Below the pieces are notes generated by a model. The model ran no database searches. It was given only the letters and a program-made list of their open reading frames with translations, and was not told where the DNA came from. Below, in pieces: positions 3,061 through 60,915 of a DNA stretch of 64,000 nucleotides. The first letter of the stretch is position 1, and each line of letters starts with the position of its first letter. Source of the stretch: an uncultured Methanobrevibacter sp. (GTDB lineage Archaea; Methanobacteriota; Methanobacteria; Methanobacteriales; Methanobacteriaceae); assembly GCF_902770715.1 (NCBI RefSeq), contig NZ_CACXTS010000004.1, forward strand, positions 1 through 64,000. The letters run 5' to 3'. Made by a program: the position numbers and the translations under genes.

Positions 3061-3071
3061 TTAATCCCCTC

Positions 3072-5417: not shown

Positions 5418-5429
5418 TATAAAAACTCC

Positions 5430-5681: not shown

Positions 5682-6154
5682 TCACCCTCCTCTACAATCT
5701 TTTTAAAACCTGCAAATGCAATGACGATTGCGGACAGACCTGCAAATACTTTCAAACCAACAAAGATATTGAGGTATGGAATAATACCTGCATTGGTTAC
5801 ATCCGGATAGTGGAAAACGCTTTGGATTGCTGCCGGAACGACATTCAACAGGTCGGTTCCGAAATTGTACAGGTAAAATCCTCCAACGAATAAACCGATT
5901 AATCCAAAGATGACAAATCCTAATGCACCTACAGATTCAAAAACTTCAATGTACAAATGAGATAATTCCAATGGAGAATTACCTAATCCATAAACGAGAA
6001 CAGATAATATGATTCCACTAGCTATCATTGCACCTCCCTGGAAACCACCACCAGGAGTGATGTGTCCTCCAAGGATAGTCATTATACCTAAACAAATTAA
6101 AAGGATTGAAATTGGTAAAGATATTAGTTTTAAAATTACACTGCCTTGACTCAT
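5678..6154 (-). CDS. ehbI: EhbI, MnhB-like membrane subunit of Ehb
   Basis: A 158 aa membrane protein with four hydrophobic segments. The motif GGHITPGGGFQGGAM (about residues 29-43) is the hallmark of the MnhB/MrpB antiporter family, also found in the membrane arms of Mbh-type hydrogenases. The gene overlaps ehbH and ehbJ by four bases each. It belongs to the Mrp-antiporter-like part of Ehb (EhbA-EhbI) that is thought to couple ion flow to hydrogen and ferredoxin chemistry. Confidence 0.88.
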   Translation of the reverse strand: MSQGSVILKLISLPISILLICLGIMTILGGHITPGGGFQGGAMIASGIILSVLVYGLGNSPLELSHLYIEVFESVGALGFVIFGLIGLFVGGFYLYNFGTDLLNVVPAAIQSVFHYPDVTNAGIIPYLNIFVGLKVFAGLSAIVIAFAGFKKIVEEGE

Positions 6155-6432
6155 TGTTTATCCCCCAATAATCCTCTACCAAATATAAGTAATACTACCA
6201 AACCAGCAGTCAACAATATAATTGATTCTCCTAATGTATCGTATGCTCTGAAATCAAAAATAACAACGGTTACAAGGTTTGGAGCTATTTGAGTTCCTAA
6301 AGCATTGTAAATATTGCTTACACCAGGGTTAATCATGTTACTTAAATGGAATACTGAATCAAATAATGTAACAGAAAATATTGCTGCAAGCACTGCTGCA
6401 ATCAAACTGCGAATTGTTGCTTTATCAGACAA
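6151..6432 (-). CDS. ehbH: EhbH, membrane subunit of Ehb
   Basis: About 93 aa with three hydrophobic segments, resembling the short MbhE/MnhB-type subunits of Mrp-like modules. I chose the TTG at 6432 (protein opening MSDKATIRSL) because a GGTGG ribosome binding site sits five bases upstream. The in-frame ATG at 6462 would add a short Cys-rich stretch encoded inside the ehbG end and has no such site. With the TTG start it overlaps ehbG by eight bases and ehbI by four. Confidence 0.82.
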   Translation of the reverse strand: MSDKATIRSLIAAVLAAIFSVTLFDSVFHLSNMINPGVSNIYNALGTQIAPNLVTVVIFDFRAYDTLGESIILLTAGLVVLLIFGRGLLGDKQ

Positions 6433-6760
6433 GATTACCACCCCAGTACATAAACACGACAATAATTGAAAGTGTTACAACTGCATAAAATATCATCTTT
6501 TCCAAAGAATCTTCCTGTTCGATTTTGAACTTAGGAATAAGCGGAATATTAGAAATCAGAACAATTGCCAATATGAATGTGACCAATCCTGCAAGCAAAA
6601 CATTTACATGCCTTAGCAATATTGCTGAGAGAACCAATGATACAATCAGGAATATTTCCGCTGTAATGCTACCGGAAACATCCGCATTGGTTACAGGACC
6701 CGGTGAAAACAATTTCTTGAATTGCTTTACAACATCGAATATTTGATCATATAGTTTCAT
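6425..6760 (-). CDS. ehbG: EhbG, membrane subunit of Ehb
   Basis: A 111 aa protein with about three membrane segments between residues 30 and 105, after a soluble N-terminus ([20 protein letters not shown]). It overlaps the ehbF stop by four bases and ehbH by eight, so it is translated as part of the operon. The sequence carries no recognised catalytic motif. The symbol follows its position between ehbF and ehbH. Confidence 0.83.
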   Translation of the reverse strand: MKLYDQIFDVVKQFKKLFSPGPVTNADVSGSITAEIFLIVSLVLSAILLRHVNVLLAGLVTFILAIVLISNIPLIPKFKIEQEDSLEKMIFYAVVTLSIIVVFMYWGGNLV

Positions 6761-8211
6761 AATATCCCTCCTACAAAGCTAGAAATTCCATTTACAACAA
6801 CATCAGGGAATAAACCTAAACCTATAACCAATATTAGCAATATTCCCATAGCAAAAATCATTGCACGAGGAACTTCTTTTCCTTCTACTTCCAATTCTTT
6901 TGGTTTTGGCCTTAAGAACATCACATAGAATGTTTTTACGAATACTACAAATGTGGCGATACTTACCATAATAGCCAAAATGGATATTTCAGGGAATCCA
7001 CAGTTTAAAGATGCTTGAACAAGCATTAATTTGGATTGGAATCCGCTTAATGGAGGAACTCCTGCCATTGCCAAACCGGCAATTAAAAGCATGAGGCTTA
7101 CTTTTGGATGATATGCCAAAAGCCCTCCGAGCTTACGTGTATCCACTTCATTTGTTGCGTTAACGATTGCGCCAAATCCAATGAATAATAATGCAGTAAT
7201 AATGATTTCGTTTAATGCTTGGAACAGACCCGCTGTAATCGCATAATTAGTTCCAAGACCTATACCTAAACCTATGAAACCAAGTTCACCAACAGCTAAA
7301 AATCCAATCATTCTTCTGAAGTCTGTTTGGGTAAGAGCCATAGAGACACCCAATATCATAGCCAAGATAGAGAAGAAAACTATGAGAACTTCAAATATCG
7401 GCAAGGTGGAATAAATCCTGTGCATAATCAATACGATTGAAATCATGGATATGACTGTAAATGATTGAAGCAATGCTGCTCCATGAGGTTCCGCTTTTGA
7501 ATAAATTCCAGATTTTATAGTATGGAAAGGTGGTAAACCAGAGGCATATAACCAACCAAAGAATATTAATCCGAGTGAAGTTAAAAATACTGGAGATGTA
7601 GCGTCAACCAAACCATTATGAACAGCTGTTGCAATATCAGTAACATTTACACTACCAGTCAATGCCAATAGGAATCCAATTCCCAAAAGCATTATTGGAG
7701 AACCGATTGACCCTAAAATCATATATTTTAAAGCCATTTCATAACTATAATCAATTGAAGAAGCTGCAACAATACCTACCTGTGCAAGTGCCAGTATCTC
7801 AAAGAATACGAACATGTGGAATATATCATCAGTTAAAAGCATTGCAGTAACTGCAGCTGTACCTAAGAACAATAAGAATAAATATGGTCCTGAAACTTCC
7901 TTATATTTAGTTAAATAGACGAATATAACTAAAAATGTTAAAAGACCTATCATTGCGATGAATATCTGTTGCAAGAAAGTAAATGAATAGGTAATTGCAG
8001 GATGATATACGAAACTTGTCACATTATCCAAAATAGGTTCATATCCGCCAAAGTAATGCAATCCATAATTGGACAATAACGGAATCAGCGGAAGACAGAT
8101 TGCAACAACAAATGCAAAAATCTTAGTTACCTTATTGAACTTTGAAAATGCACTGATCAACAATGCAGCAATCAAAGGAACAATAACCATAAGTGGAATT
8201 AGCTCATTCAT
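6757..8211 (-). CDS. ehbF: EhbF, antiporter-like (NuoN/MnhD) subunit of Ehb
   Basis: A 484 aa polytopic membrane protein with about 14 helices, of the proton-antiporter M family (NuoL/M/N, MnhD). Family features include [18 protein letters not shown] with a membrane glutamate (about residue 135), a lysine-bearing helix around [22 protein letters not shown], and [17 protein letters not shown]. These buried Glu and Lys residues are typical of ion-translocating subunits. It is the largest membrane subunit and the probable site of H+ or Na+ movement in Ehb. It overlaps ehbE by eight bases. Confidence 0.93.
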
Positions 8212-8590
8212 TGTATTCCTCCTGTTTTGATGTATCCGCCAACATCACTTTTGTGCTTAAAGTACCATATCTTCTATAAAGAACCATTACTAAAGCAAGC
8301 ATAACGGCCAAAGTACTTGCGCCAATTACAATACTGGTAAGTACCAAACCAAAAGGCAATGGATAAGCAGCGTTTGAAGCAAACCATGATGTGTCCATTC
8401 CAGGCATTAGAATAGGTACAACACCGCCTGCCTTATAACCGATAGCAACAATGAACAGATTAGCGCCTTCTTCAATAAAACTAATACCGATTATCTTTTT
8501 TATGATATTATCAACGAAAATCGCCGCATAAAGACCTATGACAACTAGAGCAACTGATGTCAATAATATCGCAAGTTGTGTCTGTGCCAT
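8204..8590 (-). CDS. ehbE: EhbE, NuoK/MnhC-like membrane subunit of Ehb
   Basis: A 128 aa protein with three membrane segments. The second contains a glutamate in the [17 protein letters not shown] stretch, as in NuoK and MnhC, where such residues take part in ion translocation. The C-terminus (KQEEYNE) is acidic. The stop overlaps ehbF, and the start overlaps the last base of ehbD. It is part of the antiporter-like arm of the complex. Confidence 0.9.
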
Positions 8591-8823
8591 TAGCTATCCT
8601 CCCTTTGAGTTTTCTGTACAGCCAAAGCAATGAATACAGGAACAATCGCTGCACCCACAATAGCTTGAGTTAAAGCTACATCGGGAGCCAATAATATCTG
8701 GAAGAGAACTGCAAGAGCCCCGCCAGAAAATCCTGTTAAGATTGCTGCTTTTAGTAAATCTTTCTGAATAAGAGCAAGAATTGCACTTAAAACTATAATT
8801 ATGCATAATACAAACTCTAACAT
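8590..8823 (-). CDS. ehbD: EhbD, small MbhD-like membrane subunit of Ehb
   Basis: About 77 aa with three membrane segments, similar to the DUF4040/MbhD-type subunit ([29 protein letters not shown] region). I prefer the ATG at 8823, which follows a GAGG site by nine bases. In-frame starts at 8832 and 8841 sit on or before that site. The gene begins inside or next to the end of ehbC and abuts ehbE. It belongs to the antiporter-like module. Confidence 0.83.
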
Positions 8824-8824
8824 C

Positions 8825-9247
8825 TTACTCATCCTCGTCAATTTCTAATGTAGTAACTGAAAATCTTTCATCCGCTTTAAGTTTCTCTGAATCTTCGCTC
8901 TCTAAAGCTTGCATTTTTTCTTTAGGATGGAAAAACGGATGATTTTCATCCACTTCTACTTCAACATTCTGTAAATCTAAATTATTTTCTCTATCTTCTT
9001 TTTTCCAATAAGCATTAGCTATTGCATGTGCTATAAACGGAGCTAGAATGAAATAAATTCCAGCAAGCAAATATTGGCCTATTGCAATCATTGCAATAAT
9101 ACATGCAACATCAAAAATACCTACAATGTGGATTCTTGCATAAACAATATTCTTTGTGTCTTTTCCTAAGCTAAGAAGACCAATTGCGGAAATTATAGTT
9201 AAAACTGCCGCTATGATAAGAAGGGCTGATTGAACATATTCTATCAT
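8825..9247 (-). CDS. ehbC: EhbC, MnhG-like subunit of Ehb
   Basis: A 140 aa protein whose first 90 residues form three membrane helices of the MnhG/MbhC type ([20 protein letters not shown] fits that family). The last 50 residues are highly acidic and hydrophilic, ending EIDEDE. This tail is longer than in ordinary MnhG proteins and probably lies in the cytoplasm. The ATG overlaps the ehbB stop and follows a GGAGGTGA site. Confidence 0.87.
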
Positions 9248-45040: not shown

Positions 45041-45592
45041 ATGACTGACGAAAATAAAAGCGAAACTGAAGTTGAAACTCAAGATATTCAAGAAAAATAT
45101 GATGAACTTCTTGAAGAGTTATCTCTCAAAGACGAAGAGTTGACTAAACTAAAAGAAGATCTTGAAAAACAAGAAGCTGAAACTCAAGAATACATTTCAC
45201 TTGCACAAAGACTTCAAGCAGATTTCGAAAATTTCAAAAAAATTACAGACAAAAGAAATAAAGAATTAGTTAAATTCGCAAATGAAAATGTAATAAAAGA
45301 GTTTTTAGACTGTTATGAAGATTTTGGTAGAGCTTTAGAAATTGAGAATGATGAAGATTTAAAAGAAGGTGTAGAACTCATCTATAATAAATTTAAAGAT
45401 GTTTTGACAAAAGAAGGTGTTGAAGAAATTCCTGCAAAAGGAGAAAAATTCGATTTGAATAAACATGAGGCATTGATGGTTCAAGAATCAGAAGATGTTG
45501 AAAATGGTTATATTATAGAAGAATTAATGAAGGGCTACATGTACAAAGATAAAGTTCTTAAATACTCAAAAGTTATAGTTTGTAAAAAATAA
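45041..45592 (+). CDS. grpE: GrpE, nucleotide exchange factor for DnaK
   Basis: A 183 aa GrpE. A long N-terminal coiled coil (about residues 15-75, EELSLKDEELTKLKEDLEKQ) precedes the family signature LQADFENFKKITDKRNKELV and the C-terminal beta domain (VQESEDVENGYIIEELMKGYMYKDKVL). It releases ADP from DnaK. It is first in the grpE-dnaK-dnaJ order, 42 bases before dnaK. Archaeal Hsp70 systems were acquired from bacteria, which is general knowledge rather than seen here. Confidence 0.95.
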   Translation: MTDENKSETEVETQDIQEKYDELLEELSLKDEELTKLKEDLEKQEAETQEYISLAQRLQADFENFKKITDKRNKELVKFANENVIKEFLDCYEDFGRALEIENDEDLKEGVELIYNKFKDVLTKEGVEEIPAKGEKFDLNKHEALMVQESEDVENGYIIEELMKGYMYKDKVLKYSKVIVCKK

Positions 45593-45634
45593 CGTTTATT
45601 AAATAATTTATGAAAAAAAATATAGGTGATAATT

Positions 45635-47512
45635 ATGTCTGATACTAAAAAAGAAAAAATCATTGGAATTGACTTAGGAACAAGTAACTCCGCAGCATCA
45701 GTGCTTGTCGGAGGTAAACCAACCACAATTCCTTCCGCAGAAGGAGCAAGCCAATACGGTAAATCATTCCCAAGTTACGTTGCATTTACCGAAGATGGTC
45801 AAATGTTAGTAGGTGAACCAGCAAGAAGACAAGCAGTAACCAACCCAGAAAACACTATCAGTGCAATCAAAAGAAGCATGGGTACTGACCACAAGGTTAC
45901 TGTAAACGGAAAACAATACTCCCCACAGGAAATTTCCGCATTCATCTTACAAAAAATCAAAAAAGATGCTGAAAGTTTCTTAGGAGAACCTATTGAAAAA
46001 GCTGTAATTACCGTACCTGCTTACTTTGACGACAACCAAAGGACTGCAACAAAAGACGCAGGAACCATTGCTGGACTTGATGTTGTAAGACTCGTAAACG
46101 AACCAACCGCAGCAAGCCTTGCATATGGTCTCGATAAAGCTGACGAAGAAGACATGAACATTATGGTTTACGATTTAGGTGGAGGTACCTTAGACGTAAC
46201 CATTATGGAATTCGGTGGAGGAGTATTTGAAGTAAGATCCACCAGCGGTGACACCCAACTCGGTGGTACCGATATGGACAATGTATTAATCAAATACTTG
46301 GCGGATGAATTCAAATCCCAAGAAGGCATTGACTTAATGGATAATGACCAAGCAGTACAAAGATTAAGAGAAGCTGCTGAAAAAGCAAAAATCGAATTAT
46401 CCACTACCACAACTACCGAAGTAAACTTACCTTTCATTGCAATGGGAACTGACGGAACTCCTAAAAACTTAATCCACTCTCTTACAAGAGCAAAATTAGA
46501 AGAGTTAGTTGATCCTATTGTAGAAAAATCCGGTCAACCAATGCAACAAGCATTAGATGACGCTAAAATGAGCAAATCCGAAATTGACAAAATCATCTTA
46601 GTTGGTGGACCTACCAGAATGCCAATTGTACAAAAATTCGTAGAAAAATTCATAGGAAAACCAGTTGAACGTGGTATTGACCCAATGGAATGTGTATCTA
46701 TGGGTGCTGCTATTCAAGGAGGAGTATTAGCTGGTGAAATTAAAGACATCGTTCTTTTAGACGTAACCCCATTATCCTTAGGTATTGAAACCTTAGGTGG
46801 AGTATCAACCACCTTAATCGAAAGGAACACTACCATTCCTACCAAGAAAAGCCAAATCTTCTCAACCGCTGCTGACAACCAACCTTCAGTAGACATCAAC
46901 GTTTTACAAGGGGAAAGAAAAATGGCTGCAGACAACACCTCTTTAGGTCGTTTCCAACTTGTAGGTATCCCACCTGCACCAAGAGGAGTGCCACAAATTG
47001 AAGTAACCTTCGATATTGATGCAAACGGTATTATTAATGTAACTGCTAAAGATAAAGGAACTGGTAAAGAACAAGCTATTACAATTACCTCTTCAACAAA
47101 ATTATCCGATGAAGAAATCGAACAAAAAATCAAAGAAGCGGAAATGAACGCTGAAGCAGACGCAAAAAGACAAGAAGAAATCGAAATCAGAAACAATGCA
47201 GACTCATTAATTTACACTTCAGAAAAAACTTTAGACGAACTCAAAGATCAAGTATCTGAAGATGAAAAAACAAAAGTCGAAGACCTTGTTAAAGAATTAA
47301 GAGAACTTATAGCTGGCGATGATGTTGATGCCATTAAAGCAAAGTCTGATGAATTATCCAATGTCATTCAAGAAATTGGTGCTAAAATTTATCAACAAGC
47401 ACAAGCTGAAGCTCAAGCTCAACAACAAGCTGGAGCTGACCCAAATGCTGGTGCTCAAGACAACAACGATGATGACACAATTGATGCAGACTATGAAGTA
47501 AAAGACGATTAG
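45635..47512 (+). CDS. dnaK: DnaK, Hsp70 chaperone
   Basis: A 625 aa Hsp70. The ATPase domain opens [15 protein letters not shown], with [21 protein letters not shown] and [17 protein letters not shown]. The substrate domain contains [15 protein letters not shown] and [23 protein letters not shown]. The C-terminal tail is Gln/Ala-rich and ends [15 protein letters not shown] chose ATG 45635 because GGTGAT ends four to five bases upstream; the GTG at 45626 overlaps that site. Codon choice is highly uniform, as expected for an abundant protein. Confidence 0.97.
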
Positions 47513-47585
47513 ATTAAATAATACAGTTTTATTACATTGTTAGGTTATAACAAAATCAGAATCAGAATCAATCAATAAAACTAAC

Positions 47586-47625
47586 AATAAGATAAAACTA
47601 TTATTTTTTCTATCTTATTTTTTTT
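47586..47625 (+). terminator. Hairpin and T-run between dnaK and dnaJ
   Basis: Stem AATAAGATA (47586-47594) with TATCTTATT (47611-47619) and a T-run to 47625. This may partly terminate transcription after dnaK, so that dnaJ is expressed less. Confidence 0.55.
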
Positions 47626-47649
47626 AAAATTATTTATTAGGGTGAATGA

Positions 47650-48792
47650 ATGGCAGACAAGCGTGATTATTATGAAGTTCTTGGAGTAGATAAATCTGCT
47701 GATGAAAAGACAATCAAAAAAGCTTATCGTAAATTAGCTAGAAAATACCATCCTGATGTTTGCGATGAACCAGATGCTGAAGATAAGTTTAAAGAAGTTA
47801 GTGAAGCTTATGCTGTCTTGTCTGACGATGAAAAACGTCAAAGGTATGATCAATTCGGTCATGCCGGAATGGATGGATTTACTGCAGAAGATTTCTATCA
47901 GAATGTAAACTTTGAAGATATCTTCCAAGGTTTCGACATTGGAAACATATTCGACATATTCGGTTTTGGTGGAGGTCGCTCTAGAGCTGCAAGAACCGGT
48001 CCTCAAAGAGGTTCAGACATTTATACTGAAGTTCCAATTACTTTAGAAGAAGCCTTTAACGGATGCGAAAAAGAAATCAAGATTACAAGAAGTGAACTAT
48101 GTCCTACATGCCACGGGTCCAAGTCAAAACCGGGGTCCAATCCTGAAACCTGTAAAACTTGTGGCGGAACAGGTCAAATCAAAGAGGTCAGCAACACTTT
48201 CTTAGGCCAAATGGTTAACGTAAGACCGTGCAGAGAATGTGGCGGAACCGGTAAAATCATTACAGACCCTTGTGAAGAATGTCACGGAAGGGGTAGTGTC
48301 AGAAAAACCAAAACAATAAAAATTGAAATTCCTGAAGGAGTTAATGAAGGCAACCACTTAAGAGTTTCCGGTGAAGGAAACTGCGGTGATGCAGCAGGCC
48401 TTGAAGGAGATTTGATTGTTACCGTTCACATAAAAAGACATAAAGTTTTCACACGTGAAGGAGACCACCTATATTTAGATCAGCAAATCAGTTTCCCTCA
48501 GGCTGCACTTGGTGACTTGATAAGCATTCCTACAATTGAAGGAAAGGAAGTTGAATTTAAGATTACTCCTGGAACACAAAGCGAAACAGTATACAAATTA
48601 AGAGGACAAGGTATGAACTCTGTTAGGCATAACGGCAGAGGAAATATGTATGTTACTGTAAAGGTTGTTGTTCCTAAAAAATTAAATTCAAAACAAAAAG
48701 ACCTGCTTAAGGAATTCGCTGAAATCAGCGGAGATGAAATTAAACATGTCGAAAAAGGACTCTTCGATAGAGTCAAAGATGCTATGAAGTAA
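47650..48792 (+). CDS. dnaJ: DnaJ, Hsp40 co-chaperone
   Basis: A 380 aa type I DnaJ. The J domain has YHPD (about residues 36-39). A Gly/Phe-rich region follows ([20 protein letters not shown]). Four zinc repeats are [26 protein letters not shown] and CEECHGRG. The C-terminal substrate domains are complete. It stimulates DnaK ATPase. GGTGA lies four bases before the start. Confidence 0.96.
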
Positions 48793-48998: not shown

Positions 48999-49019
48999 AT
49001 AGAGATTAAAAATCTCTAT
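48999..49019 (-). terminator. Hairpin containing the stop codon of the giant adhesin
   Basis: Perfect 9-bp stem ATAGAGATT/AATCTCTAT with loop AAA. The minus-strand TAG (49016-49018) lies in one arm, and T-runs follow (plus A-runs 48982-48996). Confidence 0.75.
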
Positions 49020-52000
49020 TTTTTAATTTTAATTGTGTTCTTTATAGTGCATCCACCATAGCTGGATGTTACCTTATAGGTGCCTACCTTCAAGTTTTTA
49101 AGGGACAAAGTTGCAATACCTTTCTTATTGGTTATTGCAGTGTACTTCTTATTCTTTACCTTAATTGTAATCTTCTTGTTTTTCAAGATCTTACCGTTTT
49201 TATTGACCAGCTTTACAGTGAACTTGATAGTCTTGGCCTTTTTCTTAACAACATTGCTTGCAGTCAATGTTGGCTTGATTACAAGTTTGTTAGATACGGA
49301 ATATCCATTGTATGTGGCTTTAATGGTATAGGTACCAATCTTTTTAACACTGTAAGAAATATAACCGTTTTTATCCACTGTACGTGAAACTGATTTGCCG
49401 TTCACCTTAATAGATACTTTCTTGCCTTGGGCGAGTATGACACCATTGGCATCATAAAATCTTATTTTATAAGTAGCTGTGGAACCATAATAAGTTTTGA
49501 CATTTTTATTGCCTGTAATTGGCTTGACAACCACAACCTTATTGTATTTTGCACTTGCAGCTGAGTAATAAGTTGTTTTAGTGGTTTTCAATGTAACTTT
49601 ATGAGTTCCCGCTTTAATGGCTGAAGGCAACTTGATTTGTCCTTTTGAATCTGTTGTGGCAGAGTATTTCTTGCCGTCAATTGTCATTGCGACCTTCATT
49701 TTGGCTATTGCAAATCCATTGTTGTCAACCACAGTTGCTAAAACAGATTTCAGACTAAGCTTTTTCTTTAAGTTAATGGTTGTTTTAGCTATTTTAAGAA
49801 CTGTCAGTTTACCAGTTCCTGTTGCAGCCTTATAATTTGTAGACCCAGAAAATGTAACCTTTATGTCATCAGATTGTACAGCGCTGTATGATTTGTCAAG
49901 CACCTTATTGACTATAGCCACACCATTGGCATTAGTTATTGCGGAACCAATACCTCTTCCAAATGAAACATTCAATCCTGAAACTGGATTTCCGCTACTG
50001 TCCGTAACTGTTGCGGTGTACGGTGCTTTAAGACCAGGTTTGACTGAAATACTATTAACTGTGATTTTAGGTGTGTCCTGAACAATTTTAATCGGAATAG
50101 TGGTCACTGAAGCTTTAAATTCAGAACCATTGAAAATTGCCTGAGGATAGATAGTTGCTCCACTAACCTCATCATCTTTTGGCAATTTGAAGTTAATTGT
50201 GACTTTTCCATTTGCAATTTTTCCACTAGCAATTTTAACATTATCCCAATATAAATCCACTAGCTTATCATTCACGCTGCCCCCATCTGAAACGAATGTC
50301 AAAGTTACAGATCCAGTTTGTGAATATGGAACTTCAATAATTTTTAATGAAGTGGTTTGAGTTGCTACGTAAATATAATTATCTTTAACGACATTTCCTT
50401 TATTGTTGTTGACTCCCTTGTCAGAATTGCCTTTTTCAGATTTCAAATAGTTATCCTCAACATTGTTTCCAGCTGAATTTAACTCAACAGCATATCCTTT
50501 TTTGGAAGTTATCTTATTGTCGTTTATTTTGTTGTTGGTTGAGTTTCCAACAATATATACACCAGCGTTCCCATATCCCATTGAATCCAAGTTTTTAAAG
50601 TCTACTGAATTTCCAGTTCCATTGGAATTAATAATATTATTAGTTATTTTATTGTTAGAGCCGGATAATGCGATTCCCCTAGATTGTTTTGCAGTTGCAA
50701 TTATATTGTTGCCATCAATAGTGTTTTTATCTGAAGTGACTGCCTCAATTCCGTAAGCAACATCTGAATTTAATGTGAGATTATTATTTTTAATAGTTGA
50801 CCTTTGAGACAATTCCAAATTAACTCCATAAGCAACCTGAGATTTTAAAGTGATGACATTATCCTGTAACAGAGTATCATATGATGATGAACCTATAACA
50901 ATACCCTCTGTGAAATATGTACCTTCCAAATAAATTATATTATTTGTGAAATTGTTATTGGTTGCGCCCTGACGTTCAGAAGCAGAGTGACCAGTCCTGT
51001 ATCCTAAAACACCCATACCATAAATATAATTATCCTTAGCTTTTACAGTAACCTTATTTTTTGAAAACGTATTATTATGTGAATTGTAATAAGCATCGAT
51101 ACCCACAATTGAATTTTGAGAATTAAAAGGATTTTGAATTTCAGAAACTTTGGAAGTTACATCTACAGTATTTTCAGAAACATAGTTTTGAGAGGAATAT
51201 AATAACAATATTCCATAAGTTCTGAAAATTTCAGGTACAATATGACTAGTACTGTATGTTTTACCATCAATGCACAACTCATTACCATCCAAACAATAGG
51301 TTACGCCATCAACACATAACTCATTATTTTCATTAATAGTGTAAGTCTTACCATCAATACAAACTTCTCCACCGTCTAAACAGTAGGTTTTACCATCTAT
51401 GCACAACTCATTATCCTTAATTGAATAAGTAGCACCATCAATACATAACTGATTATTCTTTACGGAATATGTCTTCCCGTCAATGCACAACTCATTACCA
51501 TCCAAACAATAAGTCCTACCATCAATGCACAACTCATTACCATCCAAACAATAAGTCCTACCATCAATGCATATTTCTTTATTTTCTGAAGAGTAAGTAA
51601 TATCTTTAGGAATATTATCTGAAGAATAAGTCTTACCATCAATGCACAATTCATTGCCCTTAATTGAATAAGTCTTACCATCAATACAAAGTTCACCATC
51701 TTTTATGGAATAATGCTTACCGTCAATACAAACTTCATTGTTCTCAACAGTGTATGTCTTACCATCAATACACAACTCATTGCCCTTAATTGAATAAGTC
51801 TTACCGTCAATGCAAACTTCATTGCTTGCGGAAGTTGTATAAACGTTACCATCAATACATAACTCGTTATTTTCATTAATAGTGTAAGTCTTACCATCAA
51901 TACATAACTCTCCAGCATCCAAACGATAAGTCACACCATCAATACATAATTCAGTGCCGTTAATTGTATAATTTAAGTTATCAAATACAGATCCTTCAAT

Positions 52001-53992
52001 TGAATTTTCATCAATAAAGTTATAAATCTTTCCGGTACCCTTGGTATTAATAATATTATCCTTAAACACACAGTCTTCAGAAGAGTAAGAAAGCAATGTG
52101 AATGTTAAATAATCCCCACTTGAGGATAAAGTGTTTCCTATCACTTCAACATTACTGGATTCCAACACATAGACTGCATAAGCAGCATTAGGATCAGAAA
52201 CATTGATTTTATTGTTAATTATTTTTACACCTGCTGCCTCATTAACATATATACCCCAAGCATTTACTCTTTTAGCCTTATCATTAACAATGTTTAAATT
52301 TTCTATCCAAACACCACCAGAGGTGACCTTAAATGTAGAATTATAGAAGAATGCATTATCACCAGTGATTTTAATTTCTTTATTGACATGAATTACTTCA
52401 TCATCGAATTTTCCTTTGAATATAATGTTGTCATGGTCTTCTACTCCAATAAGATTACCATTATCATCAATAAAGTCTCTGATATTTTCAGGAGTAATCA
52501 CATGAGTTATATTATTATATTTGTACTCTATTGAAGCAGATGTAACACCAGCAGGTTTCTTATAATCCGGATCAGTATTGATTTCTTTTCCGGTTTTAAT
52601 GTTTTTATTTCCACTGATAGTATTTTTAGAAGATTTATCCACTCCTCTCACATCAATCTTAATTGAACTATCAGATGAAATATCATTATTTTTTATAGTC
52701 ACATCAGAAGGCATTCTTTTTGAACTTAATTTTTCAATTAAAATAGGAATACCAGTACCAGTTTCTATAGTGTTTCCTGTAATAGTCAATCCAGATGCCT
52801 CTTCTTTCTGATAAACACCTACACCTTTTTCAGTTGAAATAATATTATTTTTAATATTAATCTTAGAACCAGCAGCATTAATGCCCATACCTTTTGAAAC
52901 AACAGTGATTTTATTAGAGTCTATAATGGAATTCGCGCTAGCTGAGATTCCTGCACCGGAAGAAATGATTTTAGCATTTGAAATTACATTCTTATAGATA
53001 TATGCATTTGAACCGCCAACAATACCAAAATCTCCACCAACAACTTCTTCCCTATTGTTATAATCTGCACCAGTAATGCCAACAATATTATTGTTAGTGA
53101 TATTATTATACTCCCCGGATACAGAAATTCCTCTGTATGCACCAGTAATATTATTCTTATTTATTTTATTGTTATTTCCCATTACTTGAATACCATAACT
53201 CCATGAAGTAGGAATGACATTATACTTAATTGTATTATCATGAATATTGTTATAGTTAGAAGTTCCTCCGGTTAGGGGTCCACCAGCATAAGTTGATAAG
53301 TAAATAGCATTCGCATCATCAATAATGAATTTATTTCTAGCGATTTCATTATAGTCAGAGCCGGAAAGAACCAATGGCGGAGTGGACCTTGTATTATGCC
53401 CATAAGTTATACCATAAGTATATAACTTATTATCAAGTATTTTATTATACTTCGCTCCATTTCCTAAGCAAATATCATAGGAAGATGCACCAGTATTATT
53501 AATAGTACAACCTTTAATCACACAATTGCTAGCTGAATTTAAAAAGATACCATAGGTAACATCTTTTGTATTGGTTATTTTTAAATTAGAAAATGAACTG
53601 TTAGATGCGCCACTCAATACAGTAATCATGGAATCACTCATTGAATTGGAATTACCTGTTACAGTTACTGTTTTATTGAAAATAAATACCTTATCAGAAA
53701 ATTTTCCGGATAACTGAATATCTGATGCGGACCCTATATAATTACCCTCCTTGTCAAAATATTTGCCATAATCATTGGATGTAATCTTGGTAGGACTTGC
53801 TTGCAATACATCTGAATTATCATTACTCTCTTCACTTAAAGAAAGGGTGTCCGAATAATCAGATAATTCTAGATTATCCAAGTCAACCTCATTCGTATTT
53901 AACGTATCATTTACATCATCAACCGCACTAACGGCTGTAATTGAGATAAGCAATACAAATAAGATTAAAAAAATATTAACTTTTTTAAACAT
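49016..53992 (-). CDS. Giant adhesin-like surface protein with CIDG repeat array
   Basis: A 1658 aa secreted protein. A signal peptide (residues 1-24) is followed by a right-handed beta-helix region (about 80-500, many NKI/NNI-type turns) and a second beta-helix stretch (about 505-670). Residues about 680-913 are an array of 16 units of about 14 residues around ELCIDGKTYSIKGN. A third beta helix follows (about 915-1190), then about five Ig-like domains (1200-1658) rich in lysine. There is no C-terminal membrane anchor; the basic Ig tail may hold it to the wall. GAGAGG precedes the start. The stop codon lies within a 9-bp terminator stem. Confidence 0.88.
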   Translation of the reverse strand: MFKKVNIFLILFVLLISITAVSAVDDVNDTLNTNEVDLDNLELSDYSDTLSLSEESNDNSDVLQASPTKITSNDYGKYFDKEGNYIGSASDIQLSGKFSDKVFIFNKTVTVTGNSNSMSDSMITVLSGASNSSFSNLKITNTKDVTYGIFLNSASNCVIKGCTINNTGASSYDICLGNGAKYNKILDNKLYTYGITYGHNTRSTPPLVLSGSDYNEIARNKFIIDDANAIYLSTYAGGPLTGGTSNYNNIHDNTIKYNVIPTSWSYGIQVMGNNNKINKNNITGAYRGISVSGEYNNITNNNIVGITGADYNNREEVVGGDFGIVGGSNAYIYKNVISNAKIISSGAGISASANSIIDSNKITVVSKGMGINAAGSKINIKNNIISTEKGVGVYQKEEASGLTITGNTIETGTGIPILIEKLSSKRMPSDVTIKNNDISSDSSIKIDVRGVDKSSKNTISGNKNIKTGKEINTDPDYKKPAGVTSASIEYKYNNITHVITPENIRDFIDDNGNLIGVEDHDNIIFKGKFDDEVIHVNKEIKITGDNAFFYNSTFKVTSGGVWIENLNIVNDKAKRVNAWGIYVNEAAGVKIINNKINVSDPNAAYAVYVLESSNVEVIGNTLSSSGDYLTFTLLSYSSEDCVFKDNIINTKGTGKIYNFIDENSIEGSVFDNLNYTINGTELCIDGVTYRLDAGELCIDGKTYTINENNELCIDGNVYTTSASNEVCIDGKTYSIKGNELCIDGKTYTVENNEVCIDGKHYSIKDGELCIDGKTYSIKGNELCIDGKTYSSDNIPKDITYSSENKEICIDGRTYCLDGNELCIDGRTYCLDGNELCIDGKTYSVKNNQLCIDGATYSIKDNELCIDGKTYCLDGGEVCIDGKTYTINENNELCVDGVTYCLDGNELCIDGKTYSTSHIVPEIFRTYGILLLYSSQNYVSENTVDVTSKVSEIQNPFNSQNSIVGIDAYYNSHNNTFSKNKVTVKAKDNYIYGMGVLGYRTGHSASERQGATNNNFTNNIIYLEGTYFTEGIVIGSSSYDTLLQDNVITLKSQVAYGVNLELSQRSTIKNNNLTLNSDVAYGIEAVTSDKNTIDGNNIIATAKQSRGIALSGSNNKITNNIINSNGTGNSVDFKNLDSMGYGNAGVYIVGNSTNNKINDNKITSKKGYAVELNSAGNNVEDNYLKSEKGNSDKGVNNNKGNVVKDNYIYVATQTTSLKIIEVPYSQTGSVTLTFVSDGGSVNDKLVDLYWDNVKIASGKIANGKVTINFKLPKDDEVSGATIYPQAIFNGSEFKASVTTIPIKIVQDTPKITVNSISVKPGLKAPYTATVTDSSGNPVSGLNVSFGRGIGSAITNANGVAIVNKVLDKSYSAVQSDDIKVTFSGSTNYKAATGTGKLTVLKIAKTTINLKKKLSLKSVLATVVDNNGFAIAKMKVAMTIDGKKYSATTDSKGQIKLPSAIKAGTHKVTLKTTKTTYYSAASAKYNKVVVVKPITGNKNVKTYYGSTATYKIRFYDANGVILAQGKKVSIKVNGKSVSRTVDKNGYISYSVKKIGTYTIKATYNGYSVSNKLVIKPTLTASNVVKKKAKTIKFTVKLVNKNGKILKNKKITIKVKNKKYTAITNKKGIATLSLKNLKVGTYKVTSSYGGCTIKNTIKIKK
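51248..51955 (-). repeat. In-frame 42-base repeat array encoding CIDG units
   Basis: Sixteen tandem units encode the consensus E-L/V-C-I-D-G-K-T-Y-S-I-K/D-G/N-N. All 16 keep the CxDG core (15 CIDG, one CVDG). Four units (9, 10, 13 and 15) carry a second cysteine as YCLDG. Unit 8 is longer, with an insertion before the ninth unit. DNA identity between neighbours is high, for example units 9 and 10, suggesting recent duplication or gene conversion. Confidence 0.9.
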
Positions 53993-54121: not shown

Positions 54122-54143
54122 GATGATTAAATTAATAATCATC
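54122..54143 (-). terminator. Hairpin containing the stop codon of the CobN-like gene
   Basis: Stem GATGATTA (54122-54129) with TAATCATC (54136-54143). The minus-strand TAA stop (54132-54134) lies in the six-base loop. A T-run follows (plus A-run 54105-54112). Confidence 0.6.
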
Positions 54144-57100
54144 GTCGTCGTCTTCATTATCCCTAACATAACCTACTAAAAATATTGCAATTAAAACAAT
54201 AACTGCAACAATCACGAATACAGGCATGCTAGATTCAGTTGCACTAACTGATTTAGATGTTGATTTTTCTGAAAGCTCATATGCTTTAGCACCAGCATCA
54301 CTGCCCGCACTAGATGAAGCATCTTGAGAAGTTTGTGTTTCAGAAGCAACTTTCTCATTTCCGCTTGCAGACTGGTCTGCACCAACGGAAGTTCTGCCTC
54401 CAGATTGACTTCCATCAGATTGCTCTTGAGAAGTGTTATTAGTTAATACATTAGCTTTTTGATTTCCGTCATCCATTTCACCAGATGACTTTCCATCAGA
54501 ATCTCCTTGATTAACATTGTTTTCAGAGTCTTGTTCCATTTGATATAACGGATCAGTATTAGTTGCAGCTGCCAAAATCTCCGCAAATTTCTGTTTTTGG
54601 GCCGGTGTAAGTGAACTCATCTGGATGAGTTTTGCATTGAACGCCAAGTTTTTACAAGTGTGGTGACAACATGCTACACCATAGTCAATAACACTTTTCA
54701 TGTAATTGTCAACCAAATCCTGTAGTTTTTTAGAATCTGCATCCCAAAGTCCTTGGTCAGCCATATAAATCAGCCATGCAGAAGAAGATTGAATACCTGC
54801 AGCCAAAGTACCCCTATCAACACCTTGATTAATTGTTAATGCAGTATCGGCCATTTGATTTCCAAGTTCACTATTCATTTTTCCTCCACTTAAAACAGTT
54901 GAAGCATACATGTTTTGCATTCTTGCAGACCATGCATTCATTCCGTCAGGAGTGTTAACCAATTTTTCATAATATTGTGGATTAATAACCATGGAACGGA
55001 TTTCAAATTCCAATTCCTCTTCATAAGATCTTGAAACATATTTATTTTTATTCCGGATATCTACAAATGCAGTGTCAGGCTTACCCTTACCAGATTTGTT
55101 TCTTAGAGTATTTGCGGCATTATACATACCACCAAACCAGTCATAGTAATCATCGGAATCAAACAGTCTCCATGTACTGTCAAAGTTTTGAGAAATTAAA
55201 TCCACATTGTCCAAAAGATATTCATAATTCTTCCTTTGTTTTTCAATGTGAATATTACCTTTTTCATCAACAGTCCATGAATATGAAACCTTGTTAAGGT
55301 AAACATCACTAGCTTTTTCATTTACTGTAGATATGTTCCAATCGGAAGTACTTGGAATAAGATTACTCATACCGGTTCCTTCCAAAATATTACCAGGTAA
55401 ACCAAATAACCTATCTAAAGATGGGTTTTCTTCATAATGTTTTTTAATATAATTATCTGATGTATCTTCACCATCAGCAAATGCTGCCAATTTAATAGAT
55501 GTCAACATCCAGTTTAACCAGTCTTTATTACTAGTTACAATACTAGCAAATACATCAACTCTTGGCCTATTGACAATACTTCCATTATTCAGTTTAACAG
55601 TTAAATTTTCTAATGGTAATAATTCAACACCTATAACCTTATCATTAGTGTTAGAAACCCATTTAGGTTTACAGCCTAAGAAGTATAAAAATTCTGCAAC
55701 ACCAATTCCTTCAGTTCTTGAAATTTCTGTACCCCATAAGATTAATGAAGTTAACTCCGGCCACTTGCCATGCGCTTCGTAGTAATTTGCAAGCAATAAA
55801 TCCACAATCCTTACTGCAGACTCATATGCAGCATGTGAAGGCATTCTTGTTGGATCGGAAGAGTAACCATTGTATCCAGTTGGGATAGAATCACTATATG
55901 CAGGATCAGCAAACAAACCTGATTGCACATATTTTCCGCTTAATGCTGAAAAGATCGCATTCCATTCATTATTGTTTTGAATATTTACAATTACCTTTTC
56001 ACAGAACAAAGTTGAATTATACAAATCAGTGCCCTGACTAATTCCAAACTTCTTGTTTAATTCCTCTACTGAAGAACCATTCACCAGCAATGCAGTGTAT
56101 GTATGCAAGAATTCCTTAACCATATGAGATTCCGTGAGATATTTTGCTTTTCCAGAAATATCAGTGAAGAAGTCTTTTCCTTTTAAATTAGGATATAAAA
56201 ATTCTAAAAGCTGATTATAAATTCTGGTTTGAGATGCAACGATTGTCGCAACTTCTTCAGATAATTCAAATCCGGTTAAAATTTTACCTAAGTTATGCAA
56301 TCCATATGTGTTAAAGTCATCAGTCATATTTTCCAGATAAACATGCAACTCATCAACCCACGCAGAGAAGTTTTCACCTTTAGAAATATTTCTAAAACCT
56401 AAACTTGGAGCAAGTTTCAATATCTCCCCTGCATAATATTCTGCATTAGATGTAACATTAATTGTTAATTGTTCTTTATATCTATTGATATAATCATTCA
56501 ATATAGAATAATTACCATATAACTCAGAAGAAACCATAGCTGGAGTCATGTGAGTAATCATCAATGATGCTATCCTATCACGAGCAACCATAGCCTCACC
56601 AGGGTTAGAAACAATATACGGATAAATTGTTGGATTTAAAGTTAACTCAAAGGTCCAATCTCCTCCCATTACACCGATATTTTTACCTGGCAACCATTCT
56701 AATGTTCCATGAGTTCCCATATTAACAATCGCATTTACATTAACAGTCTTATCCAACCATTCGTAGAATGAAACATACTGTTGATGCGGAGGCAATTTTA
56801 AATCGTGGTAATTTTGTACCTCTTCCCATCCCCTACTTGGTTGGAAAGTTACAAATACATTACCGAACCATAATCCTGGAATAACAATGTAACTATTTTT
56901 ATACACCATTATTTCTCCAAGAACCCCCTTAGCTCCCCAACGTTCCATCATTTCATCGAATAAGTCATCAGGAATGTCTTCAGTTAAATCATAGAAGTCT
57001 TTAACAGATATTAATTGATGATGTTCCATCAATGCATCCCAATTAGTTTCGACATATTCCTCTAATAAACCGGATGCCCAGGAACCTTTATTACCCATTT

Positions 57101-58961
57101 TAAATACCAAATCTTCGAAAGTGGTGAGATTCATCAAATCACTTACATCACATCCAATATCATAACCTTGTTCTGCCAATTTAATAATTAAATCATATGT
57201 ACTCAAACAAACAGATAAGTATGATGCACCAATTTCAGCTTTACCTGGCGGATAATTATAAAGTACAACAGCTATTTTTTTATCAGCATTATCCATATCT
57301 CTTAAATCTGCCCATCCACAACTTAACTTAACCATTTTATCTATACCAGATTGGATAACATGAACTTTACCCAAATCATCAATCCATGACAAAATAACCG
57401 GTCCGAATACTCCTTCAAAACTAGGATATGTAACTGCATAAGTCCATTCGATTTGAGGACCTAATTCACTTTCATAACTGTATTTTGAAATTTCATTGAC
57501 CCCTTTTAAAACTTCTAAATCGATTTCGGATAAATCATCTTCTGCTGAACCGTTTGCATAACTTAAAGACCAACTATACAATGAAGTAATAGCAGAAATT
57601 CCAACTTTAGATGTTTTATTGACTTTATTCAATATGGAAGACATTGAAGGCTGTGTGGATAATTTAAATACATTGAATGCAGGCCTTCCATTTGCCTCAT
57701 AACCTCTAATTAAAGAATCTACAACATCTCCACCGAAATAGTAGGTAGCAATAGCTATGAATCTTTTATCAGGATTGAACTTAGAAGTATAATTATTTTC
57801 AAATTGTTTGAATAATTCTGTTGGGTCTAAAACAGAACTAAGCCAGTTAGGATAATCCTCAATCATCCAGTTTAAACTACCTTCACCATCATGATTATAA
57901 CCCGGATTTTTCAAAATCCACTCGTTAATCAATTTAGATTCCGGCACTACAGTATAAACTCCTAAGTCTGGATGATAAAATCCACATTCAGGATTCATTA
58001 AAGGAGTTGACCCCGCATTAAGAGTGGGATTGCTGTATCTGGATGGATTAATTAAGTAAGAAACATACTGCAAGTAATATCTCATATTATGTTCCAATAC
58101 ATTTGTGCTGTTAATATCATCAGCTAAAAAATATGAACCAACATATGTATTTTCAATAGTATGGAAAGTATTATTTTCAGCATTTCCTCCAATAATGTGC
58201 ATATTTGTAGCTTCTTTAATTTTATCATCATAAACACCGAATGTATATGCAACTTTATAATTATCGTTAGCAGGTGATTTTGCCAAAAGTTTAGCTAAAC
58301 GATTCCCTGTAAACATGTTATAATTATCAGCAAACATGTCTATGTGAATAAAATTTGCCTTTTCTGCCAACCATTCCCTAGATACATCATAGTCTGTGGT
58401 ACTGATATAAGCAATTCTTTTAGACAAATTCATCAGCATGTCAATTTTCTCATTATGAGATGAATAATCTGCAAATATTAGTATATCCGGTATAAAATCA
58501 TGAGTTATCATAACATAATTGCCTTTAGTGAAGTCAACACTTGTTTTATAAGGCTCATATGTCGAATAAGAAACTTCAAGACTATATTTACCACCATTTA
58601 AGTTTTTAATTAAAGCATCACCTCTTGAATCTGTTTTTTGAGTAGAAACAACTTTATTTGAAGAGTCATATACTTTAATTGTTGCACCAGCTAAATTAAA
58701 CCCATCTTCATCCCAATTTTTGCTTGTTTCGTTATAATAATGATTAACATGAACGTTGATTACATTATTGCTTTCAGATAAAACATTTTCGTTATTTTGA
58801 GAACTGAGAATTGGTGAAACTTGTGAAACATCTTGAATATTGGCAATTTCATTAACTTCTTCAGGCACACTAGCAATATCCTGCGTTATATTATTATCTT
58901 CCGCAAAGACGACACTTGCAGAAAATAAAATCATTATTGAAAGAATTAATGTGAATAACAA
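54132..58961 (-). CDS. Membrane-anchored, extracytoplasmic CobN/magnesium-chelatase-like protein
   Basis: A 1609 aa exported protein. The N-terminus is a signal peptide (cleavage near VVFAEDN). Residues about 45-135 resemble a carboxypeptidase-regulatory or Ig-like domain. Residues about 150-1440 are a complete CobN/BchH-type chelatase (HGTLEWLPGKNIGVMGG, IYPYIVSNPGEAMVARDRIA, LILWGTEISRTEGIGVAEFL). A Ser/Gln linker, a membrane helix (about 1574-1596) and an acidic tail DNEDDDDDY close it. The chelatase would face outward, away from ATP. The TTG at 58961 is the first common start, but GGAGG (58994-58990) is seven bases from an in-frame ACG at 58982, giving MKKIDNR and a better signal peptide. 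Confidence 0.87.
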   Translation of the reverse strand: MLFTLILSIMILFSASVVFAEDNNITQDIASVPEEVNEIANIQDVSQVSPILSSQNNENVLSESNNVINVHVNHYYNETSKNWDEDGFNLAGATIKVYDSSNKVVSTQKTDSRGDALIKNLNGGKYSLEVSYSTYEPYKTSVDFTKGNYVMITHDFIPDILIFADYSSHNEKIDMLMNLSKRIAYISTTDYDVSREWLAEKANFIHIDMFADNYNMFTGNRLAKLLAKSPANDNYKVAYTFGVYDDKIKEATNMHIIGGNAENNTFHTIENTYVGSYFLADDINSTNVLEHNMRYYLQYVSYLINPSRYSNPTLNAGSTPLMNPECGFYHPDLGVYTVVPESKLINEWILKNPGYNHDGEGSLNWMIEDYPNWLSSVLDPTELFKQFENNYTSKFNPDKRFIAIATYYFGGDVVDSLIRGYEANGRPAFNVFKLSTQPSMSSILNKVNKTSKVGISAITSLYSWSLSYANGSAEDDLSEIDLEVLKGVNEISKYSYESELGPQIEWTYAVTYPSFEGVFGPVILSWIDDLGKVHVIQSGIDKMVKLSCGWADLRDMDNADKKIAVVLYNYPPGKAEIGASYLSVCLSTYDLIIKLAEQGYDIGCDVSDLMNLTTFEDLVFKMGNKGSWASGLLEEYVETNWDALMEHHQLISVKDFYDLTEDIPDDLFDEMMERWGAKGVLGEIMVYKNSYIVIPGLWFGNVFVTFQPSRGWEEVQNYHDLKLPPHQQYVSFYEWLDKTVNVNAIVNMGTHGTLEWLPGKNIGVMGGDWTFELTLNPTIYPYIVSNPGEAMVARDRIASLMITHMTPAMVSSELYGNYSILNDYINRYKEQLTINVTSNAEYYAGEILKLAPSLGFRNISKGENFSAWVDELHVYLENMTDDFNTYGLHNLGKILTGFELSEEVATIVASQTRIYNQLLEFLYPNLKGKDFFTDISGKAKYLTESHMVKEFLHTYTALLVNGSSVEELNKKFGISQGTDLYNSTLFCEKVIVNIQNNNEWNAIFSALSGKYVQSGLFADPAYSDSIPTGYNGYSSDPTRMPSHAAYESAVRIVDLLLANYYEAHGKWPELTSLILWGTEISRTEGIGVAEFLYFLGCKPKWVSNTNDKVIGVELLPLENLTVKLNNGSIVNRPRVDVFASIVTSNKDWLNWMLTSIKLAAFADGEDTSDNYIKKHYEENPSLDRLFGLPGNILEGTGMSNLIPSTSDWNISTVNEKASDVYLNKVSYSWTVDEKGNIHIEKQRKNYEYLLDNVDLISQNFDSTWRLFDSDDYYDWFGGMYNAANTLRNKSGKGKPDTAFVDIRNKNKYVSRSYEEELEFEIRSMVINPQYYEKLVNTPDGMNAWSARMQNMYASTVLSGGKMNSELGNQMADTALTINQGVDRGTLAAGIQSSSAWLIYMADQGLWDADSKKLQDLVDNYMKSVIDYGVACCHHTCKNLAFNAKLIQMSSLTPAQKQKFAEILAAATNTDPLYQMEQDSENNVNQGDSDGKSSGEMDDGNQKANVLTNNTSQEQSDGSQSGGRTSVGADQSASGNEKVASETQTSQDASSSAGSDAGAKAYELSEKSTSKSVSATESSMPVFVIVAVIVLIAIFLVGYVRDNEDDDDDY

Positions 58962-58982: not shown

Positions 58983-59180
58983 CTTTTCACCTCCTTTTCC
59001 AGTTATTTATAACAAACATAGCAATAATTTACTATAAGTTTAAATTTGATTTGAAAACATATAAAGTTTGTTAAAGTAAGTTTACTTTATATATTTTCAA
59101 AAAATTATTAACACGAATAAGATACATTTAAATACATAATTGACTAAATAAAATGTACTAATATAATAGAGGTGACAAAA
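58983..59180. promoter_or_regulatory. Divergent control region of the CobN-like and DUF1002 genes
   Basis: AAAGTAA (59073-59079) and TTACTTT (59082-59088) form a 7-bp inverted repeat with a two-base spacer, next to TATA-like sequences on both sides (about 59059-59066 and 59085-59094). It could be an operator for both genes. GGAGGTGA for the CobN-like gene is at 58994-58987 and GAGGTG for DUF1002 at about 59169-59174. Confidence 0.45.
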
Positions 59181-60026
59181 ATGCGCAAGATTAGTATTGG
59201 AATGATACTTTTATCCATACTCGTTATAGGTATGCTCATCCCAGCAGGTTTTTCAACTAATGACAATCAAGTTGTTATAACCTACGGAGAAACTACACAG
59301 CACAATGCAAATTATAAGAGTACTGTAGATACATTCTTTAAAAATCAAGCTGGAATTGATTTGAATGGTGTGAATACAAAAACAATTACTGCTGATGAAG
59401 TAAATAAAATTTCAAGCACAATTACTGGAAAATATTATAATTCAGAACAAATCTTCTCCTCAGCATTGGTTGATTTGAATGACAATGACAATCTTGAAGT
59501 CAGCGTTGACAAATCTACAATCACTACAATCACTGGAGACATGTACCTATCTGCATTAAAATCAGCTGGAATCACCAGCGGACATGTTTATGTAACAAGC
59601 CCTGTTACCGCTACCGGTGAATCTGCATTAGCAGGTATTATGAATTCTTATGAAGTAGCAACTGATGTTGAAATTCCGGATACTGTTAAAGAAGCAGCCA
59701 ACAATGAAATTTACACTCAATCTGAAATCGTGCAAAATTCAGATGTTAATGCTGATGACTTATCTAAATTAGTAGATGACGTCAAAGAAACAGTTCAAGA
59801 AGAAAACATCACAGATCACCAAACTATTGTAAATATAATTAATAACTATACTGTTAATTACAACATTAACATCACAAATAGTGATATAGAAAACCTTGCT
59901 GATAGTATTGAACAAATTCAAAATGTCCAAGGAGACATTAACAACTATCAAGCAGAAGTATCTGATGTGTTAAACAGTACAGATACCGGATCAGTTGATG
60001 GAATTATAAATGGATTATTCAATTAA
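59181..60026 (+). CDS. Secreted DUF1002 (YpuA-like) protein
   Basis: A 281 aa protein. ATG 59181 is chosen because GAGGTG lies six bases upstream. A signal peptide (residues 1-26, ending AGFSTN) precedes a DUF1002 domain: VVITYGETT, then VYVTSPVTATGESALAGIMNSYE. The C-terminal 90 residues (from about 185) are polar and acidic with repeated Asp-Asn-Ile patterns. DUF1002 proteins are mostly bacterial (Firmicutes) and of unknown function. Divergent from the CobN-like gene, with a possible shared operator, so the two may act together at the cell surface. Confidence 0.85.
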   Translation: MRKISIGMILLSILVIGMLIPAGFSTNDNQVVITYGETTQHNANYKSTVDTFFKNQAGIDLNGVNTKTITADEVNKISSTITGKYYNSEQIFSSALVDLNDNDNLEVSVDKSTITTITGDMYLSALKSAGITSGHVYVTSPVTATGESALAGIMNSYEVATDVEIPDTVKEAANNEIYTQSEIVQNSDVNADDLSKLVDDVKETVQEENITDHQTIVNIINNYTVNYNINITNSDIENLADSIEQIQNVQGDINNYQAEVSDVLNSTDTGSVDGIINGLFN

Positions 60027-60072: not shown

Positions 60073-60915
60073 CTATTGCTCCTTATCATCAGATTGACCG
60101 GATGATTCATTGCTTTTAATTAATTCCTCCAGATTTTGGATGGATTCTTTCAACTCTTTGTTTAATCTTTCATTCTCTTCAAATTTATGATTAAAATGCT
60201 TCATTAAAATGGCAGCTGTTAGAGTAGCAGTACCCACACCTGAAAGAATATATCCTCCCCAAACCAAAATTAATGCATTTATTTTTCCGGCAATTGTAGT
60301 TCCTAAAACGGCATATCCATTACTTGTAAATGCATTGGAAACCATTACCAAAGAATCCAAAGGATAAACATCTTCAACAATTTGAGTTAAAATGAAACTA
60401 ATGAATATTAGGGCGAACAATACCACTATAGTTACGCTCAAACCGTTAGATTCCGTGTATTGCCTAAACTTATCATAATAGAGTTTAACAAAGTATATGA
60501 AAACCAAAACATGAATTAAATCTATGTAACTTAATAAAAGGGAACCAAATAACAGGAAATTAATAGAATCAAAAGGAACTAAAAGCAAAAGTATAATTTT
60601 CCCCTTTAAAGAACTTTTATCCAATGTTATTGCTAAAAATAAGGATAAAGCAATGTCAAATATTACAAAATAAATAATACCCTCGCTAGATATTAAAGCA
60701 TATAAAATATCAATGAAAGCCAATGACATTAGTATTAGGTAAAATACCTGTTTTAAAGTATGTATTTCATCTTCCGGAAGTATTTCACCCAAATTTGAGA
60801 GTGCATTGGAACTGGACATCACTCTTTTATAAACAAATGTTCCAATAGCAACCACGATAAGAAATATTATTATTTCAAAAAGCAATCCTCTGAAAAAAAT
60901 TGTTATATCATCCAT
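60073..60915 (-). CDS. Multi-pass membrane protein with a K+ channel-like pore segment
   Basis: A 280 aa protein with about seven hydrophobic segments. Near residues 182-203, DSLVMVSNAFTSNGYAVLG resembles a pore helix and filter, followed by a final helix, as in the 2TM pore of K+ channels. The usual TVGYGD is replaced by TSNGYAVLG. A C-terminal coiled coil (about 240-268, KFEENERLNKELKESIQN) may drive oligomerisation. It could be a divergent ion channel. The stop lies in a short GAGC/GCTC hairpin. Confidence 0.6.
   Translation of the reverse strand: MDDITIFFRGLLFEIIIFLIVVAIGTFVYKRVMSSSNALSNLGEILPEDEIHTLKQVFYLILMSLAFIDILYALISSEGIIYFVIFDIALSLFLAITLDKSSLKGKIILLLLVPFDSINFLLFGSLLLSYIDLIHVLVFIYFVKLYYDKFRQYTESNGLSVTIVVLFALIFISFILTQIVEDVYPLDSLVMVSNAFTSNGYAVLGTTIAGKINALILVWGGYILSGVGTATLTAAILMKHFNHKFEENERLNKELKESIQNLEELIKSNESSGQSDDKEQ

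Follow-up and report, generated by a model that had tools for sequence, protein, structure and literature searches.

A cysteine-rich repeat array at a fixed beta-helix loop of a Methanobrevibacter adhesin-like protein encoded beside a CobN-like chelatase

A 1658-residue adhesin-like protein, encoded in a 64,000-nucleotide stretch of DNA from an uncultured Methanobrevibacter sp. (the window), was found to carry a cysteine-rich repeat array that interrupts its beta helix at one fixed site, and its gene is paired with one for a CobN-like chelatase. Since the repeat period changes between relatives, the cysteines are kept and the predicted structure differs between forms, what is selected is the density of cysteines at a fixed loop and no particular solenoid. 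The array appears to be the version that one species has of a hypervariable insert presenting cysteines, with C-x-x-G at changing intervals. We tentatively favour, with somewhat less than even confidence, the reading that it is a thiol-rich element for the capture of a metal (or a metallo-tetrapyrrole) which would work together with a surface chelatase or de-chelatase.

The gene (49016..53992, minus strand) was recognised from its open reading frame and from Pfam matches to Beta_helix (5e-20), NosD (PF05048, 1.8e-15), Big_3_5 and Big_1, where PF13229 (72.2 bits, cut-off 25.9), PF16640 (52, cut-off 35.5) and PF02369 (46.4, cut-off 34.9) all exceed their curated cut-offs. With a right-handed beta helix (RBH) and Big domains, the protein belongs to the adhesin-like class of methanogens; the earlier note had called it a giant adhesin, in which the class stands and the size is generous, 1658 residues being ordinary for the class. 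The probable signal peptide (residues 1-23, MFKKVNIFLILFVLLISITAVSA; 53924..53992, minus strand) was judged by eye from the hydrophobic N-terminus and is followed by the N-terminal part of the beta helix (51977..53785, minus strand), which ends in the conserved anchor GTGxxYxF right before the insert. The C-terminal part (50288..51244, minus strand) begins with the conserved anchor EI(Y/F)RTYGILLLYSS, such that the helical turns stop at GTGxxYxF and restart at E-I-(Y/F)-x-T-Y-G-I-L-L. The Ig-like (Big_3_5/Big_1) repeats assigned by Pfam (49019..50275, minus strand) form a C-terminus that is likely to be wall-associated, and wall attachment has been suggested for their counterpart, the M1-C domain (PMC2812497). 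Adhesin-like proteins (ALPs) of Methanobrevibacter and Methanosphaera are described in PMC11532034 and PMC2812497 as RBH and archaeal Big domain proteins and share the RBH and Big-type repeats, and probably the signal peptide, with the protein studied here. Unlike in the ALPs described there, its helix is interrupted by an insert, always at the same turn, and a cysteine-repeat element was not found in the main text of either paper.

The array (51245..51973, minus strand; residues 674-916) is slightly wider than the span of 51248-51955 and about 230 residues previously given to it, and holds 243 residues. Twenty cysteines were counted in it against five in the other ~1415 residues of the protein (P = 4e-21 for at least 20 by a binomial on the background), which bears out both the sixteen-unit array with every cysteine kept and the cysteine-poor remainder described in the earlier note. 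These cysteines are distributed over 16 C[IV]DG-x-x-Y units and four additional CLDG half-units. The 14-residue unit consists of two 7-residue halves of the form [Y/L]-[C/S/T]-[I/L]-[D/K]-G-x-x and the second cysteine that had been noticed in four units, correct as to the total of 20, is better described as the cysteine of the other half. Spacings of 7, 14 and 15 residues were observed together with one irregular unit of 25 residues; the CxxC and CxC spacings typical of high-affinity metal sites are absent from the array. A search of its own genome found the array at this site only. An assembly artefact had been named as a possible refutation but the array is not one, because adjacent copies have diverged to only about 62-76% match at the DNA level and dozens of independent assemblies, single-contig genomes among them, contain the array.

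The carrier protein is of a known kind; the searched libraries do not contain the repeat. As had been supposed, it is not a recognised family: scans with Pfam and NCBIfam models and a sequence search of the PDB found nothing that describes it. Galaxin-like repeats (PF24748), which are also cysteine-containing tandem repeats, matched at E 2.8e-5 and 24.5 bits, below the curated cut-off of 28; this is probably an effect of composition, and further homology between galaxin and the array was not found. The grass antifreeze beta roll (PF21300) resembles the array in its 14-residue two-strand logic and its G turns but scored 14.9 bits, far under its cut-off of 30, and to our knowledge the motif of that family does not have the cysteine. 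The whole-protein score of 42.4 for the C-glycoside deglycosidase beta family (PF19906) is a sum of short repeat matches, no single stretch of which passes. A Foldseek comparison of the AlphaFold model with the PDB gave TM-scores of only 0.06-0.14, which are not meaningful, to beta-hairpin repeats such as those of teneurin/Rhs, CROP and OspA. A phage or plasmid origin was also set aside, as relatives were absent from phages and viral contigs and a single weak plasmid match (32%) was obtained. Neither the repeat nor its pairing with the chelatase was found described in the main text of the open-access papers searched.

The insert was followed through 67 congeneric genomes and 152 genomes in the phylum; the named relatives are all Methanobrevibacter, mostly MAGs from ruminant gut. 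The array was matched by sequence in 27 of the 67; when the site was instead located from the flanking helix together with the gene next door, C-x-x-G was observed at it in every readable congeneric orthologue (53 genomes). The number of cysteines there varies from 1 to 25 between species, in agreement with the suggestion that the array is length-variable. Within the genus the period is 14, 7, 6 or 5 residues depending on the species. As an example, the period-14 form YCIDGNELVIDGKS has its cysteine in the opposite half from the window array, the period-7 forms include VCTDGST, SCLDGDA, VCPEGNT and SCLDGRE, and STCVDG and NCLDG repeat with periods of 6 and 5, respectively; a further congeneric form is CIGQCLGDVLKEHCLDG. 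M. smithii (G007) has a single CIDG at the site. Single-CIDG forms also occur in other genera, where SELCIDG, CIDGGICVDGG and TCVGG (period 5) repeats were found as well. The genus of M. ruminantium has a period of 4 or 7, with CLDG or CADG occurring 11 times consecutively in M. ruminantium M1 (G085) and ICPDGTT-type heptads in its relatives, which reach 41 cysteines in the protein. Two tandem beta-helix genes were noticed in that genus; the first keeps a single CIDG and the second has up to about 36 cysteines in heptads or CLDG/CIDG tetrapeptides. Cysteine is absent from the site in Methanosphaera (G123, M. stadtmanae) and some other genera. In a tree built from the flanking helix (51 rows), the period class was observed to change at least 15 times; this was a quick tree in which G023 and G072 were poorly extracted and have long branches, with the main pattern unaffected.

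These changes do not support a conserved disulfide- or metal-stabilised solenoid, which had been offered as one possibility for the array, as orthologues shift both the period (14, 7, 6, 5 and 4 residues) and the position of the cysteine in the unit. The AlphaFold model of the 14-residue form in the window has alternating short strands (pLDDT about 60-83). For a heptad orthologue the insert was predicted to be disordered (pLDDT about 27-31) within a mostly well predicted flanking helix, and this prediction, which came from just 13-20 sequences with an ambiguous repeat register, led us to reject a conserved beta solenoid. With strands predicted in one form and disorder in another, a common fold across the insert forms is unlikely and a shared chemistry likelier. 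The regular strands of the 14-residue form make cross-strand disulfides conceivable, and the cysteines might staple the loop or cross-link wall surface proteins through disulfides, either intra-array or intermolecular, the repeat being structural. We consider this unlikely, at perhaps one chance in a few. The protein is extracellular and the same helix has the invariant Cys157 and Cys162, both of which are consistent with disulfides, but the numbers of cysteines in the insert are odd (5, 7, 9, 11, 13, 25) about as often as even (4, 6, 8, 10, 14, 20), forms with a single cysteine exist, both the period and the cysteine position vary freely, and disorder is predicted for the heptad form. Furthermore, strict anaerobes of the sulfide-rich gut live in a reducing setting, which also argues against disulfides.

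Divergence between units was used to judge the age of the arrays. The units of the window array have dS of 1.0-1.2 and dN of 0.10-0.25, and the units of most arrays differ far more at synonymous than at non-synonymous sites, with synonymous divergence saturated in several; the array of G078 is young (dS 0.34). Among the arrays compared, cysteine and glycine are found in all units and aspartate in nearly all, with both TGT and TGC used for cysteine in nearly all arrays. The units are thus divergent at synonymous sites yet have kept every cysteine, and therefore the cysteines are not simply leftovers of recent duplication. A neutral or weakly selected slippage process, in which an ancestral single CIDG loop was repeatedly expanded into a length-variable spacer and the cysteine was a passenger of recent duplication, would account for the single-CIDG forms in M. 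smithii and other genera and for unequal copy number in close species (8 cysteines in G010, 11 in G055). We regard it as improbable, as dS of about 1 or at saturation marks the units in most arrays as old, every independent expansion kept the cysteine whatever its period, and the single-cysteine form is itself conserved across genera. Diversification of an exposed loop under host-immune, phage or partner-recognition pressure is the least probable reading, since the C-x-x-G core is under strong constraint, which a diversifying epitope would not be, and the gene is single-copy and syntenic, although length and motif change fast at a fixed exposed loop and adhesin-like proteins are surface antigens according to PMC2812497.

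The capture of a metal or metallo-tetrapyrrole is suggested in part by the gene directly upstream of the array gene, on the same strand and across a gap of 139 bp. It encodes a CobN-like class I chelatase (54132..58961, minus strand) that matches PF02514 (2.8e-169, 565.7 bits, over the cut-off) and, in the PDB, CobN, ChlH and HmuS; the match to the HmuS structure 9d26 (E 1.4e-52) reflects general homology. An N-terminal signal/CarboxypepD_reg domain and a C-terminal TM helix were recognised, from which the protein is predicted to be exported and anchored at its C-terminus. Alignment with the GKHG of CobN places the superfamily-conserved cavity histidine at His751 in a GTHG motif (56706..56717, minus strand), equivalent to His538 of HmuS and His522 of CobN (PMC12583661), and with this residue kept the protein can be assigned as a class I chelatase H subunit. 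Near the C-terminus, CCHHTCKN (residues 1431-1438; 54648..54671, minus strand) is identical in 17 of the 17 orthologues listed and is a possible source of metal ligands; searched on its own against the PDB, this region had no significant match. The longest frame starts with TTG at 58961 and the first ATG is at 58934, and therefore the true start is unsure.

In 20 loci chosen on the array alone, the CobN-like gene was directly upstream in 19, the twentieth ending at a contig edge. The pair is flanked in most loci that are long enough by dnaJ/dnaK on one side, seen in the window as grpE-dnaK-dnaJ (45041..48792, plus strand), a conserved synteny marker, and on the other side by a DUF1002 gene (59172..60026, plus strand), which is divergent from the CobN gene and conserved in loci reaching far enough. 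Beyond it, 60073-60915 (minus strand) encodes a predicted membrane protein of 280 residues with no Pfam match. Joint presence or joint absence of chelatase and adhesin over the 67 genomes (54/3/2/8) gave a Fisher value of 1e-6, which ignores phylogeny and genome completeness; the adhesin locus of G028 is cut by a contig end and hence is not a case of an adhesin without CobN. In G059 the CobN-adhesin pair is in tandem duplicate, with 2 cysteines in the insert of one copy and 16 in the other. The partnership is not obligatory, because G084 (95% complete) has a cysteine array and no PF02514 match, and because the M. ruminantium genus lacks a chelatase gene next to the array gene. There the array gene is directly followed by a MotA/TolQ/ExbB gene, a neighbour that speaks for the capture reading. 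The order in Methanosphaera is DUF2162, MotA/ExbB, adhesin and CobN. A second CobN-like gene in the genome of the window (G000:C19:5000-20000, 2653-9182) is followed by two genes, with the sizes and places of a DUF2162-ExbB pair, and then by a very large exported protein, and M. ruminantium M1 has the same arrangement. For M1, PMC2812497 gives mru2047 as a BchH with N- and C-terminal TM helices and lists it with the adhesin-like mru2048 and mru2049.

Under the capture reading, the fixed loop of the surface RBH would display a flexible or weakly ordered segment rich in cysteines held as free thiols rather than disulfides. On the cell surface this segment may bind a metallo-tetrapyrrole or an ion of a transition metal (Fe, Ni, Co, Zn or Cu) and could, in contact with the neighbouring chelatase or de-chelatase, act as donor or acceptor depending on the direction of metal transfer, its binding capacity being tuned by copy number. 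Metal binding, one of the roles offered in the earlier note, stays the leading idea. The two facts of most weight, the insertion site that is fixed across species and the CobN-like chelatase gene next to the array gene, could not be seen by that note. Against the capture reading count the missing CxxC and CxC spacings and the non-obligatory partnership, and also that chelatase adjacency is no proof of contact and that the Methanosphaera adhesin is next to a CobN-like gene with no cysteine at the site. If the array binds metal, it would resemble the metallothioneins in having many thiolates in a short stretch but differ from them in being extracellular, in its large beta-helix carrier and in its regular C-x-x-G spacing; no sequence relation to metallothioneins was detected. 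Another comparison, which speaks for the capture reading, is with HmuS. This heme de-chelatase belongs to the same superfamily as the chelatase, is membrane-anchored and has a disordered 120-residue insert containing 21 Met (PMC12583661). The neighbour of the array gene likewise encodes a homologue of class I chelatases that is anchored in the membrane and has the conserved histidine, and both systems have a sulfur-rich low-complexity insert. In HmuS this insert is rich in Met and part of the enzyme, whereas here it is rich in Cys and carried by an adhesin-like protein apart from the enzyme. Archaea were reported to be without complete hmu operons, and methanogen CobN-like proteins to have no association with cob genes and unclear functions (PMC12583661).

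The array shows clearly how a repeat can expand with its unit being replaced but a single residue and a single site conserved. More speculatively, gut methanogens might possess a surface apparatus for scavenging metals or tetrapyrroles, in which an exported CobN-like chelatase or de-chelatase is combined with a beta-helix protein whose thiol array is evolvable; we hold this possible at roughly one chance in three. The array would then be a metallothionein-like surface reservoir, its capacity set by repeat number, that evolved repeatedly with different repeat lengths. Methanogen CobN-like proteins recur alongside a surface protein in which a thiol array is the one conspicuous feature, and this pairing gives them a testable partner and chemistry, the handling of metals or tetrapyrroles at the surface, both in the main archaeon of the human gut, M. 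smithii, and in methanogens of the rumen, which are targets for methane mitigation.
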